64,000 nt of DNA from Candidatus Chlorohelix allophototropha (GTDB lineage Bacteria; Chloroflexota; Chloroflexia; Chloroheliales; Chloroheliaceae), in NCBI RefSeq assembly GCF_030389965.1, contig NZ_CP128399.1, positions 1,726,934 through 1,790,933 on the forward strand, given 5' to 3'. Numbering within the stretch: position 1 is the stretch's first letter; each line of letters opens with the position of its first letter. Positions 6,040-56,009 of the stretch are shown here, piece by piece. A model generated the notes under the pieces. The model did no database searches and was not told where the DNA came from. It saw only the letters and a list, made by a program, of their open reading frames with translations. The position numbers were made by a program, and so were the translations under genes.

Positions 6040-6096
6040 GCCCGTTTATTCCACTTAATTAGTTACGAAATATATAAATAAATCGAAATAAGTGGA

Positions 6097-6191
6097 ATTT
6101 CCCTTCGCCGGTATTACCCGGATCAGGTTCAAACGGTCGAAGATACTTTCAATCTTCCTCTCAGCCTGGAAAGTCCAAGCTCCCGTTGGTA
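6097..6191 (-). promoter_or_regulatory. TPP riboswitch (THI element)
   Basis: Read on the minus strand, the conserved blocks of the thiamine pyrophosphate aptamer occur in order: ACGGGAGCTTGG, GGCTGAGAGG, then ACCGTTTGAACCTGATCCGG, GGTAATACCGGCGAAGGGAA. These are the pyrimidine- and pyrophosphate-sensing arms of the family. It precedes the ABC importer operon and should shut it off when TPP is plentiful. Confidence 0.96.
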
Positions 6192-6351
6192 TTTTTTTTA
6201 AAAGGTGCAAAAGCAGTCAGACTATAGAATAATGATATTTGGCAGTATCATAATACTTTTTGTTTTGTAGCACAAGTCATTTGCAATGTACTTTTTGCCA
6301 TGTTATATTTCGTTTAGATGCATATTAAGCATTCATAACAACTGAATATTG

Positions 6352-6459
6352 CTCTCATCAAGAGAGGTGGAGGGACTGGCCCTATGAAGCCCGGCAACCG
6401 CCCGAATTTTCGGGAGTGGTGCCAATTCCGGCAGGCGATTATAGCCTGAAAGATGAGAG
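6352..6459 (+). promoter_or_regulatory. SAM-I riboswitch (S-box leader)
   Basis: The outer P1 stem is CTCTCATC (6352-6359) with GATGAGAG (6452-6459). Inside are the S-box conserved blocks AGAGGTGGAGGGACTGGCCC, TATGAAGCCCGGCAACC and GTGGTGCCAATTCC, with GGCAGGCGATTATAGCCTGAAAGATGAG closing the aptamer. It precedes mtnA and probably controls the methionine-salvage/SAM-cycle genes, turning them off at high SAM. Confidence 0.96.
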
Positions 6460-51734: not shown

Positions 51735-52349
51735 CTAAAAGAGGGTTAGCAAAGCTACGACCCCAAAAGCGCAAATGATGAACCCAGAAATCCAGTTAAT
51801 CCAGCGCATTATTTGAGGTGTAATCTTTTTGTGCAACAAGCCTAGCAAGGTTGTCATGACCACCCACCACAGCGAAGAACCGCTAAAAACCCCAACTATA
51901 AGTATTAATGTTGCTACGTAATCTCCGTTGGTACTACCTGCGCCTAGTCCTGCCAGTATTACCGCAAAAGAAATGATGGTCATGGGGTTTGTTAAAGTTA
52001 GTAAAAATGTGGAAAGGTATAGTCTAGATAGCTTTCCACCGCTATCCTTAGCTTCTCGCGCTACAGGGGCAGCAAGTGCTATTTTTATACCAAGATAGCA
52101 CATAAATCCCCCTCCAATAAGGCGAAGCCAAAGGCTTTGCTCTACCAGCAGGCTTGATACAAAAGTAAGCCCGAATCCGCCAATTGCTCCATAAAGTCCA
52201 TCCGCAGTTGCAACCCCTAGACCCGAAACCAATCCGGGCAGACTACCATAAGCCAGCGTTCGGCGCATTACTAACACCCAAATTGGTCCTACTGAGGCAG
52301 CTATCGAGAACCCAATTAAAAGTCCTCGCAAGAAAAATCCCAAATCCAT
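51735..52349 (-). CDS. LysE-family amino acid exporter
   Basis: A 204-residue protein with six predicted membrane helices and the LysE/RhtB signature FSIAASVGPIWVLVMRRTLAYG near residue 12, plus FLLTLTNPMTIISFAVILAG near residue 122. These proteins export amino acids such as lysine, threonine or homoserine lactone. The ATG at 52349 follows GGGAGGA; a longer reading to 52394 would run through the terminator of the leader and is rejected. Upstream is a leader that looks like a transcription attenuator. Confidence 0.88.
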   Translation of the reverse strand: MDLGFFLRGLLIGFSIAASVGPIWVLVMRRTLAYGSLPGLVSGLGVATADGLYGAIGGFGLTFVSSLLVEQSLWLRLIGGGFMCYLGIKIALAAPVAREAKDSGGKLSRLYLSTFLLTLTNPMTIISFAVILAGLGAGSTNGDYVATLILIVGVFSGSSLWWVVMTTLLGLLHKKITPQIMRWINWISGFIICAFGVVALLTLF

Positions 52350-52370: not shown

Positions 52371-52470
52371 AAAAACAAAAACGCCAGACCTCACCTGAGA
52401 TCTGACGCAACTTAGCTTTTTATCAAAGACAAAGCAAGCTAACCAGACCTCTTTTTCGGTTGGCTTTGCT
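52371..52470 (-). promoter_or_regulatory. Attenuator-like leader of the LysE gene
   Basis: On the minus strand: (1) an imperfect 12-pair stem, 52470-52458 with 52444-52433; (2) the 9-mer GAGGTCTGG at 52451-52443; (3) CAGATCTC at 52404-52397; (4) a second GAGGTCTGG at 52392-52384, then GCGTTTTTGTTTTT. Elements 3 and 4 form an 8-pair terminator (loop AGGT). Element 3 can equally pair with element 2, which would prevent the terminator. Mutually exclusive pairing is typical of riboswitches and attenuators. I cannot assign it to a known class. Confidence 0.6.
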
Positions 52471-52786
52471 GCTGGGTGCTAGTTCTTTTTTCAGTTGAAA
52501 TTTCTAAACTACAAAAGCACATAATATTCCTGTCAAATTTTACAAATTATTTCGATGTTAGATTATCATACCATTAGTGATTAATCAATGTATAGAAACT
52601 AAAGAAATTGAATATATTTCTTGTATTTTTAAACAAATCCCACTCCTACTCAAGCTTTGTCACCCAATGAACTTTTCAAAATAACGTTTGTTTGAGCGCT
52701 TACTATGTGCCTATTTTAGATTTTGTTTTTCAGTACGGCGTTATAAGCAAACCATGCAATTTTAGGTTAAAATTATAAAAAGGGGC

Positions 52787-52875: not shown

Positions 52876-53508
52876 ATGGACGTCACACAACTTAAACCAG
52901 AAGTGCCGCTTAGCGTGGCACAAAAAAAACTAGAGAAAAAACAGTCAATAATCGAGGCTGCCAGAGAGCTTTTTACTACTACCGGCTATGAATCAACTAC
53001 TATTGCAGATGTAGCTCGTAAAGCGGGAGTGGCGGTCGGTACGGTTTATTTGTACTTTAAGAATAAATCTGAATTGCTCTATGCAGTCAAGGGTGATTGG
53101 GAGTACGAGTTTCTAGCCTTTTTACAGGATCCGGCTTTGCAGCAAATACCGCATTACATGCGGGCACGTCCTTTAATGGAAGCCTGTTTCGAACTGTGTA
53201 ATCGGCAATCCGATATGATACAGATGATGGGTTTGCAGCCACAGGAAATCGGTGGTTGGGAGAAAACTATTTCTGATCCTATCCAAATAGGTATAAAAAC
53301 GTTTTTTGATGAAGCAATTGCACTCGGTTATATGCGACCTATTGACTCACAGGCAGCTTCAGTTTTGGCTTTTGGAATGGTTAGCGATGCTCTTTACCAA
53401 TGCTTCAATGTCGAAGGTGGCAAATCCGTATCGCGTTATATTGATGCGTTGGTGGATTTGCTGGATCATTGGCTTTTGATGCCACCATATCTGAACAAAG
53501 AAATTTAG
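52876..53508 (+). CDS. TetR-family transcriptional repressor
   Basis: A 210-residue regulator. The DNA-binding domain is at residues about 20-70: IIEAARELFTTTGYESTTIA DVARKAGVAVGTVYLYFKNK with the helix-turn-helix typical of TetR. The remainder is a ligand-binding helical domain. Its gene and the divergent sites carry three copies of one palindrome, and the next gene is an MMPL exporter that it probably represses until a substrate is bound. The ATG has no strong ribosome site. Confidence 0.92.
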   Translation: MDVTQLKPEVPLSVAQKKLEKKQSIIEAARELFTTTGYESTTIADVARKAGVAVGTVYLYFKNKSELLYAVKGDWEYEFLAFLQDPALQQIPHYMRARPLMEACFELCNRQSDMIQMMGLQPQEIGGWEKTISDPIQIGIKTFFDEAIALGYMRPIDSQAASVLAFGMVSDALYQCFNVEGGKSVSRYIDALVDLLDHWLLMPPYLNKEI

Positions 53509-53518
53509 CAACAGTTTT

Positions 53519-53543
53519 GCCCCGCTTAAAGGGGCTAATTTTT
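53519..53543 (+). terminator. Terminator after the TetR gene
   Basis: GCCCC (53519-53523) pairs with GGGGC (53531-53535), followed by TAATTTTTA. Transcription of the MMPL gene therefore probably starts separately. Confidence 0.7.
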
Positions 53544-53558
53544 AGGCTTGTTTTTACT

Positions 53559-53573
53559 GAATGAAGCTCATTC
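53559..53573. promoter_or_regulatory. TetR operator, site 2
   Basis: GAATGAAGCTCATTC, one mismatch from the perfect palindrome, about 135 bases upstream of the MMPL start. Confidence 0.65.
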
Positions 53574-53630
53574 ACATCCGAAGAGCTTTAGTTGTGGTTT
53601 ATTCGACCTTTTTTTTGCCCTGAATTCTCT

Positions 53631-53645
53631 GAATGAACTTCATTC
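53631..53645. promoter_or_regulatory. TetR operator, site 3
   Basis: GAATGAACTTCATTC, a perfect 7-1-7 palindrome, 72 bases centre to centre from site 2 and about 50 bases upstream of the MMPL start. Confidence 0.7.
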
Positions 53646-53693
53646 GGATATTTTAACAACAACTAATTTACATAACTTATTACGAGGTGAGAG

Positions 53694-56009
53694 ATGTACG
53701 CAGCTTTAGGAAAATTTATATATCGTTATCGTTGGTTTGTGTTAATAGCAGGCATTGCTTTTATGGTAGCGGCGGGTGTCTTTGGCACGAGTCTTTTTGG
53801 AATGTTAAAGGGCGGCGGCTATGATAACCCGGCTTCTGAATCTTTCAAGGCGGTTGGGACAATTCATGATCAATTGGGACAGGAAGACGCTTCGCTGGTG
53901 GTACTTTTCACTTCCAAAGACAATACTACTGTTGTGGATAGTCCAGCCTTTGCTCAAGGGGTTTCAGAAGTGCTTTCCAAATTGGATGGTAAACCTTACG
54001 TAGGTAAAATTACCAATTACTACAATTCAGGCGCTACTCAACTGGTTTCTAACAACAAGCTCAGCACCTATGCGATCATTACGTTGGCAGGTGATACTGA
54101 AGAACAGCAAAAGCATGCTAAAGAATTGCTTCCACTGCTAACTAGCGCTACTTTAAAAGTGCAGGTTGGTGGGCAAGCGATGGTGTATGAACAGATTAGC
54201 GAACAGGTTAGCAAAGACCTTGAAACGGCTGAAATGGCTACTTTCCCCATCCTTGCAATACTGTTAGTGCTGATTTTTGGTAGCCTGATTGCGGCGGCGT
54301 TGCCGCTGGCAATCGGTGGTATTGCCATCCTAGGCGCCTTTCTACTGCTGCGCGTTGCCGTTAATTTCACCGATGTCTCTATCTTCGCGATAAATATAAT
54401 CACAATGCTTGGTTTGGGTTTAGCGATTGACTACAGCTTGTTTGTAGTGAGTCGCTTCCGGGATGAGCTAAAACGTTACAATGGTGATACTCGCGCCGCT
54501 TTGGTAAAAACCATGCAAACTGCTGGACGCACCGTAACTTTTAGCGGCTTGACGGTGGCTATCAGCTTGTTGAGCCTACAGGTATTTCCTCAAATGTTCC
54601 TGCAAAGTATGGGCTTGGGCGGCGCGGCAGCGGTACTAGTAGCGGTCATTGCTTCTATAACCATATTACCGGCTATGCTGGCGTTGCTTTCTCATCGGGT
54701 AAATGCCCTTTCGATTTGGTCAATCATTCACATTCGGCGTAATTCCGAGAAAAAGCTGGAGAATCGCGGCTTCTGGTATAACCTTAGCACCTTTGTAATG
54801 CGCCGCCCTGTCGTAGTGCTACTGTTCACTGTGCTTCCACTGATGTGGGTTGGTTTGCCATTCCTTCGGGTAAATCTGGCAACACCGGACGCGCGTAGCC
54901 TTCCTGCTACAGCCGAAAGCCGGATAGTAAGCGAGTATTTGAGCAATGAATTTCCGCGCAATGAAACCGTACCGATTCAGCTTGTCCTTAAAAGCAATAG
55001 CCCTATGTTGAATGCAGCTAATATTACAACGCTTTATGACTATACTCGTAAAATAGAAGCGGTTCCGGGCGTGCGTCGGGTTGATAGTCTGGTAACACTC
55101 GATTCTAGTCTCGATAAAAACGCTTATGTCGGTTTTTATTCGGATGCAGGTTTAGCGCAAAACCCACAAGCACAGATAGCGGCAACACATTACGCCAAGG
55201 GCAACTATGCCTTAGTATCGGTACTTTACGATAGCGACCAACATTCAGGTCAAGCGCAAGAACTGGTAAAAACAATACGTGGGCTAGGTGCGCCTGCCGG
55301 AATGACTCTTGAAGTGGGTGGCGAAACTGCCTATCTGGTAGATTTTCTTGCCAGCTTGGAAGAAAGCGTGCCCTTCGCCGTAGCGTTCATCGTGGCAACT
55401 ATCTTCATCCTTTTGTTCTTGATGCTTGGCAGCGTGGTAATACCGCTCAAGGCAGTAATTCTGAATACATTATCGCTGTCGGTCAGTTTCGGGGCATTGG
55501 TTTGGGTCTTTCAGGACGGTAATCTCGCCAATGTGTTAGGCTTCACTCCGTTGGGCAGCATTGATGGCACACAGCCAATCCTAATTTTTGCCATCGCTTT
55601 TGGTCTTTCGATGGACTATGAAGTCTTTCTCTTGAGCCGGGTGAAAGAGCATTATGACCGCTTCGGCGATACCACTGCCGCCGTAGCGCACGGTATCCAG
55701 AAGACCGGCGGAATTATAACCAGTGCGGCAATACTATTGGTAGTGGTAATTGGCGGGTTTGCCGCCGGTGAAGTGGTGTTCATCAAGCAAGTGGGCGTGG
55801 GTTTGGCGCTGGCAATTTTGGTGGATGCCACTATAGTGCGGGCGTTATTGGTTCCGGCAGCGATGCGCTTGATGGGAAAATACAATTGGTGGGCACCTGC
55901 CCCTCTGGCAGCCCTCTACCGCCGCGCGGGACTCAGCGAAGTGGAACACGAAGACGAGTCCACCCCGCCAACTTCAGTGCAACCCTCGTTGTTTGGTTCA
56001 CGCAGTTAA
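53694..56009 (+). CDS. MMPL/RND-family membrane transporter
   Basis: A 771-residue protein with 12 membrane helices in two repeats of 1+5: helix 1, an outer domain (about residues 40-165), five helices; then the same again. MMPL marks are GLGLAIDYSLFVVSRFRDEL near residue 238 and FGLSMDYEVFLLSRVKEHYD near residue 640, both with the conserved Asp-Tyr pair that carries protons. It probably exports lipids or hydrophobic toxins. It is preceded by two TetR operators and GAGGTGAGAG, and followed by a strong terminator. Confidence 0.93.
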   Translation: MYAALGKFIYRYRWFVLIAGIAFMVAAGVFGTSLFGMLKGGGYDNPASESFKAVGTIHDQLGQEDASLVVLFTSKDNTTVVDSPAFAQGVSEVLSKLDGKPYVGKITNYYNSGATQLVSNNKLSTYAIITLAGDTEEQQKHAKELLPLLTSATLKVQVGGQAMVYEQISEQVSKDLETAEMATFPILAILLVLIFGSLIAAALPLAIGGIAILGAFLLLRVAVNFTDVSIFAINIITMLGLGLAIDYSLFVVSRFRDELKRYNGDTRAALVKTMQTAGRTVTFSGLTVAISLLSLQVFPQMFLQSMGLGGAAAVLVAVIASITILPAMLALLSHRVNALSIWSIIHIRRNSEKKLENRGFWYNLSTFVMRRPVVVLLFTVLPLMWVGLPFLRVNLATPDARSLPATAESRIVSEYLSNEFPRNETVPIQLVLKSNSPMLNAANITTLYDYTRKIEAVPGVRRVDSLVTLDSSLDKNAYVGFYSDAGLAQNPQAQIAATHYAKGNYALVSVLYDSDQHSGQAQELVKTIRGLGAPAGMTLEVGGETAYLVDFLASLEESVPFAVAFIVATIFILLFLMLGSVVIPLKAVILNTLSLSVSFGALVWVFQDGNLANVLGFTPLGSIDGTQPILIFAIAFGLSMDYEVFLLSRVKEHYDRFGDTTAAVAHGIQKTGGIITSAAILLVVVIGGFAAGEVVFIKQVGVGLALAILVDATIVRALLVPAAMRLMGKYNWWAPAPLAALYRRAGLSEVEHEDESTPPTSVQPSLFGSRS

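Follow-up and report, generated by a model that had tools for sequence, protein, structure and literature searches.

A probable glutamine-codon attenuator upstream of a LysE-type transporter gene in Chloroflexota

Introduction

In proteobacteria, the leaders of trp, his, thr, ilv, leu, and phe are classical attenuators. Classical ribosome-mediated attenuators are also found in Actinobacteria, at trp, trpS, and leuS (PMC1262725). Here we describe a leader upstream of a lysE gene from the Chloroflexota. Like the classical attenuators, it has a short reading frame, a run of control codons, three mutually exclusive helices, and a terminator with a U tract. Unlike them, it has control codons for glutamine, its target is a transporter that is annotated as an exporter, and it belongs to a sequence family that is common to members with lysine, arginine, alanine, or glutamine codons.

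A comparable system is in Thermus thermophilus, where Tsubouchi and colleagues reportedly described in 2005 that a leader peptide attenuates the gene cluster for lysine (alpha-aminoadipate) biosynthesis. The pathway is the same as for the lysine-codon relatives of our leader, although Thermus belongs to a different phylum. We know of no glutamine or LysE member of that system.

Two other kinds of regulation are similar in part. The lysine riboswitch (L-box) and the T-box also control amino-acid genes, including transporters, by termination within a leader, but in our case the sensor appears to be a translated reading frame with control codons, and there is no match to their covariance models. 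TnaC and SpeFL are likewise short reading frames upstream of genes for handling amino acids or polyamines, but the predicted stall site in our leader is at the control codons and not at the end of the peptide. Leader-peptide attenuation as a kind is old. A literature search that took in few subscription journals found no paper on glutamine-codon attenuators or on leader peptides of Chloroflexota, so an attenuator family in this phylum with glutamine codons and a transporter as its target is apparently undescribed.

Results

The leader and its competing helices

We analyzed a window of 64,000 nucleotides from the genome of Candidatus Chlorohelix allophototropha. The regulated gene (51735..52349, minus strand, as are all elements of the leader) encodes a LysE/RhtB-type transporter of 204 amino acids (Pfam PF01810, E = 1.2e-20). 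The protein also matches the RhtB-type family TIGR00949 of NCBIfam, below the cut-off, and the solved structures that we searched included no relative. The start of lysE, at 52349, lies directly after a terminator and is preceded by GGGAGG.

An earlier reading of the same DNA (the sequence-only reading) had proposed that lysE is preceded by an attenuator, perhaps a riboswitch, in which two copies of a 9-base repeat compete for one arm of the terminator. The repeat, GAGGTCTGG, is found exactly twice in the 64-kb window, both times on the minus strand (52443-52451 and 52384-52392); 0.31 copies would be expected, and two copies were reached in 5 of 100 shuffles. As claimed, the arm CAGATCTC (region 3, 52397..52404) can pair with either copy. 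With the later copy (region 4, 52384..52392), which is the 3' arm of the terminator, it forms a stem of 12 pairs, which encloses a 4-base loop and is followed by the tail TTTTGTTTTT. This intrinsic terminator lies at 52371..52408 (with the stem at 52408-52381 and the U tract at 52380-52371), and the leader yielded no other, with 0.3 expected. With the earlier copy, region 3 forms 9 pairs (-13.0 kcal/mol), and this is the antiterminator, so the sequence-only reading assigned the two roles correctly. The segment 52375-52478 folds better than its shuffles (z = -3.0).

An imperfect stem had also been placed just upstream of these elements. The stem exists: in the minimum-free-energy fold, region 1 (AGCCAACC, 52458..52465) pairs with GGTCTGGTT. 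But it overlaps the earlier copy of the repeat, so it is a third competing helix (P1) and not merely a neighbor. Region 2 (GAGGTCTGGTT, 52441..52451) contains the first copy of the repeat and serves both as the 3' arm of P1 and as the 5' arm of the antiterminator. Three helices then compete: P1 (regions 1 and 2), the antiterminator (regions 2 and 3), and the terminator (regions 3 and 4). As in attenuators of the trp type, the antiterminator and the U-tract terminator are mutually exclusive.

What had been missed is a reading frame, and with it the coding nature of the first repeat copy. An unannotated frame of 27 codons (52439..52522) encodes MCFCSLEISTEKRTSTQQQSQPKKRSG and then a stop. Region 2 overlaps its last codons and its stop, and the first copy of GAGGTCTGG is read as AGG TCT GG(T) TAG, at the end of the frame (52522-52439). 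Codons 17-21 (52460..52474) are CAG CAG CAA AGC CAA, or Gln-Gln-Gln-Ser-Gln, and this position fits the predicted stall site. Neither Pfam nor NCBIfam has a match to the leader peptides. Upstream of the frame, at 52565..52594, there is a site that weakly resembles a promoter (TATACA-18-TATGAT, in which TG precedes the second hexamer), a consensus match of the kind expected 1.0 times by chance.

Elsewhere in the window, a TetR-type regulator and an MMPL-type transporter (52876-56009, as judged from the reading frames only) are divergent from lysE, and a SAM riboswitch and a TPP riboswitch stand back to back, about 150 bases apart, at 6352-6459 (plus strand) and 6083-6196 (minus strand).

Conservation of the leader

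We compared LysE orthologues from the family, the class, and the phylum, along with their upstream DNA. Across Chloroflexota, about 40 orthologues share the layout: a run of glutamine codons, region 2 (approximately AGGTCTGG), region 3, and region 4. Many other LysE orthologues have no such leader. Searching with the DNA of the locus gave only short matches, which pointed to the conserved leader. An exact pattern scan of GTDB genomes gave 7 matches, of which 5 were LysE leaders and 2 were chance (one lies inside purQ). Within its own genome, this leader is the single match of a covariance model for LysE leaders.

The reading frame is conserved as a protein. Its counterparts in these approximately 40 leaders have the glutamine run and, mostly, an RSG-type end, while the four glycine codons and the three stop codons all occur. 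In the same family, for example, the leader peptides are MSLPFKPNTGLSGLQQQSQPYRRSG (L004) and MKALTFSLIAGFSGLQQSSQPYRRSG (L006), and farther away they are MMMFCSLKQQQQSQNNLGLIDRRSG (L061) and MMMTPHTRTSQQRGQQQPDRRSG (L097), each followed by a stop. In the large genomes of family f29, the peptides continue beyond the motif, as in L131, which ends in AQQQQINQLLWRSGLLLMLFAS and a stop. When this genome is compared with L004, the QQQSQP stretch shows three codon differences, each of them synonymous and at a third position.

Nearly all of the LysE leaders have a run of codons for glutamine, the amino acid that we think is sensed (110 CAG and 35 CAA codons). QQ is present in frame 0 in 36 of 38 leaders, in frame +1 in none, and in frame +2 in 6, but these statistics are inflated, as part of the set was recognized by its QQ. 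A less circular test uses terminators that were found without reference to any reading frame. Among 102 distinct regions upstream of LysE, 32 had both a terminator and a short reading frame with QQ, 12 had only the terminator, 7 had only the reading frame, and 51 had neither (P = 4e-10, Fisher exact test). Several of the 12 regions with only a terminator also have this leader, either with Q-x-Q or with a more extended reading frame (L082, L084, L093, and L135). In genus g25 of family f10, the LysE leaders mix lysine and glutamine codons (L084 and L085).

Some leaders have further features. In L007, L010, and L013, TATACT-like boxes end about 7 bases before the ATG of the leader peptide, which suggests that its transcript is leaderless. 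In L061, the stretch from the terminator to LysE contains a second glutamine-rich short frame (MQQWCNQWVAVEQQTSGQQRRS...), at about 130 bases upstream of the gene. In L171 (genome G408, family f29), a second leader with a glutamine run (MQQQVNQTGMRFG..., at about 1470-1640) precedes a gene for a GAF-domain protein (Pfam GAF, E = 6.9e-16, with no NCBIfam name), 1.5 kb upstream of the LysE leader.

Covariation of the alternative helices

In an alignment of 24 LysE leaders, both of the alternative helices covary. For the antiterminator, 91.2% of cells are paired, and the covariation score is 0.210, as compared to 0.157 for shuffled alignments (0/500) and 0.103 at most for slid versions of the pairing. 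For the terminator, the score is 0.292 versus 0.161. Duplexes between cognate regions 2 and 3 have an energy of -18.5 kcal/mol, versus -16.3 kcal/mol if the partners are permuted (sd 0.47, 0/20000), while control segments from upstream showed no difference between cognate and permuted partners. The same pairing scheme also appears in other letters: GGCGAAAACG pairs with CGTTTTCGCC in L075, and CGGGGCT pairs with AGCCCCGG in L129.

The sequence-only reading was right about an attenuator. Paired changes, which it had put forward as a check, are seen for both helices; at some columns, region 4 no longer matches, and region 3 still pairs with region 2 there.

Related leaders with other codons

We searched 400 genomes of Chloroflexota with the covariance model for LysE leaders. 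For 158 genomes of the class, we used a codon-neutral sequence model, which begins two codons upstream of region 2. These searches found homologous leaders at other genes (L192-L234 and L265-L304). Leaders with lysine codons precede homocitrate synthase, homoaconitase, and LysX, with peptides such as MPIAISKQVKRVKKPAHRSG and MNSHGIQIDNKKKCKKQPYSRSG. Leaders with arginine codons precede argG, argC, and a phosphatase gene that is followed by an argJ-like gene (for example, MNRPHATPRRLRRTQPDQTSG). One alaS is preceded by a leader with an alanine run (MLNVPFKHVNFAAAAQTASLVGIVA). (All of these peptides are followed by a stop.) Among lysine, arginine, and glutamine, in peptide windows that were chosen by eye, the dominant residue was lysine in 38 of 41 lysine leaders, arginine in 25 of 25 arginine leaders, and glutamine in 30 of 38 LysE leaders.

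Genome G009 has a lysine leader at homocitrate synthase, an arginine leader at argG, and a glutamine leader at LysE. Of the arguments for the codons as the sensor, this internal control within one genome is the strongest.

Directly 3' of the stop codon, GCGCTTG is strongly conserved in the lysine, arginine, and glutamine leaders. It is often complementary to CAAGC, which lies before region 3, and might be part of an extra hairpin or a pause site.

A model for regulation

We think that the leader of lysE probably attenuates transcription by way of a translating ribosome, in the manner of the trp operon, and that the amino acid it senses is glutamine (we put the probability at roughly 0.84). The reading frame, the glutamine run, the three competing helices, the covariation, and the codon-matched relatives come from sequence and comparison; we infer that the frame is translated, that ribosomes stall on it, in which direction expression responds, and what physiological purpose this serves. 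In this model, a ribosome would translate the short glutamine-rich peptide while RNA polymerase transcribes the leader. If Gln-tRNA is plentiful, the ribosome would cover region 2, or it would depart and P1 would re-form. With region 2 unavailable, region 3 would pair with region 4, and transcription would end before lysE. When Gln-tRNA runs short, the ribosome would halt on the glutamine run, where it would mask the 5' arm of P1 but leave region 2 free. Region 2 would then pair with region 3, no terminator would form, and lysE would be transcribed. By analogy with the lysine, arginine, and alanine leaders, glutamine shortage most likely switches the transporter on. In those leaders, the control codons match the gene product. 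Glutamine codons have no obvious match to LysE, and it counts against the attenuator that the regulated gene has no evident role in making the sensed amino acid. The mixed codons of genus g25 and the many LysE orthologues with no leader also count against it.

We also folded the leaders with a ribosome at various positions. We took the RNA to be exposed up to the loop of the terminator and computed the probability that region 3 pairs upstream (the antiterminator); these values are equilibrium estimates of a kinetic process. The mean probability was 0.52 with no ribosome, 0.74 with the A site on the glutamine codons, and 0.18 with the ribosome at the stop, and it was lower at the stop than on the glutamine run in 38 of 38 leaders. 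In silico, then, a ribosome that is stalled on the control codons frees the antiterminator, as in attenuators of the trp type. At this locus, the probability was 0.81 without a ribosome, 0.65-0.82 on the glutamine run, about 0.07 once the ribosome had moved on by two or three codons, and about 0.46 when it was at the stop. P1 is weak here: the ribosome-free RNA already favors the antiterminator, so repression would have to come mostly from translation. Once the RNA is full length, nearly all leaders are more stable with the terminator formed, so the antiterminator can prevail only if it forms earlier. Both points count against the model.

Other explanations

Alternatively, the ribosome might be arrested by the nascent peptide, as with TnaC or SpeFL: the peptide ending in RSG would stall it at the stop, in response to a free amino acid. 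RSG and the stop are conserved at the end of many leaders, and the regulated gene encodes a transporter. We consider this unlikely, as a ribosome at the stop covers region 2 and leads to termination in our folding model, and the frames of the f29 leaders extend beyond RSG, so the end is not fixed. Furthermore, the RSG codons are themselves the pairing element, and the presence of glutamine, lysine, arginine, or alanine runs before different genes agrees with codon sensing. The position-dependent folding, together with the f29 leaders that have no stop at RSG, led us to drop arrest at the stop codon.

The sequence-only reading had also considered a riboswitch. In that case, an aptamer in the leader would bind the exported amino acid and stabilize the antiterminator. 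The exchange of terminator and antiterminator does exist, and induction by a ligand would suit an exporter. However, conservation upstream of region 2 follows a reading frame, which varies synonymously and has a glutamine run, and not an unpaired aptamer core. This conserved leader peptide, presumably translated, has control codons, and we saw no sign of an aptamer. The codons also change with the gene in homologous leaders. Here they point to Gln-tRNA, and switching on in starvation is the reverse of ligand-induced export. The sequence-only reading had seen no match to the lysine riboswitch or T-box consensus, and Rfam covariance models, including those two, gave no match to the leader at the gathering score, either in the window or at 18 related loci. 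(The weaker matches, which had E values as high as 10, were snoRNAs or sRNAs hit by chance.) Overall, a riboswitch is quite improbable.

That this is an ordinary terminator with a chance repeat and no regulation, such as the end of an upstream unit, we find hardly credible: the repeat alone is only moderately unlikely by chance (from the shuffles), but conservation across the phylum, covariation, and the strict position between the reading frame and the start codon already contradict it.

Discussion

If glutamine-codon attenuation is correct, then a presumed exporter would be induced by glutamine starvation, which is paradoxical and unexpected. We suggest, tentatively, that the LysE transporter of Chloroflexota might be a glutamine-starvation response gene, and that it might export a compound that blocks glutamine synthesis (such as alpha-aminoadipate) or move glutamine itself. 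Alpha-aminoadipate is a glutamate analogue and an intermediate of the pathway by which these bacteria make lysine, and it inhibits glutamine synthetase; our literature search for it as an inhibitor of that enzyme found no support. In several f10 genomes, LysE is directly downstream of homoaconitase in a unit that is controlled by lysine codons (L011 and L026), and this genome has genes for proteins that resemble homocitrate synthase and LysX (L212). Under our hypothesis, export of alpha-aminoadipate would fit these arrangements, the mixed lysine/glutamine leaders, and the second glutamine leader of L171. Other candidates are glutamine supply or the export of other glutamine antagonists, such as methionine sulfoxide. 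The transporter may also have a substrate that differs from the one its annotation implies.

More broadly, these leaders appear to be an attenuator family that spans the Chloroflexota, in which one RNA scaffold has been re-aimed by swapping codons for lysine, arginine, alanine, or glutamine. If LysE is a glutamine-starvation response gene of the kind suggested above, the codon run would be the first clue to the real substrate of an "amino-acid exporter." Such codons may offer a direct way to learn what a large family of transporters, mostly named by similarity only, does in the physiology of the cell.
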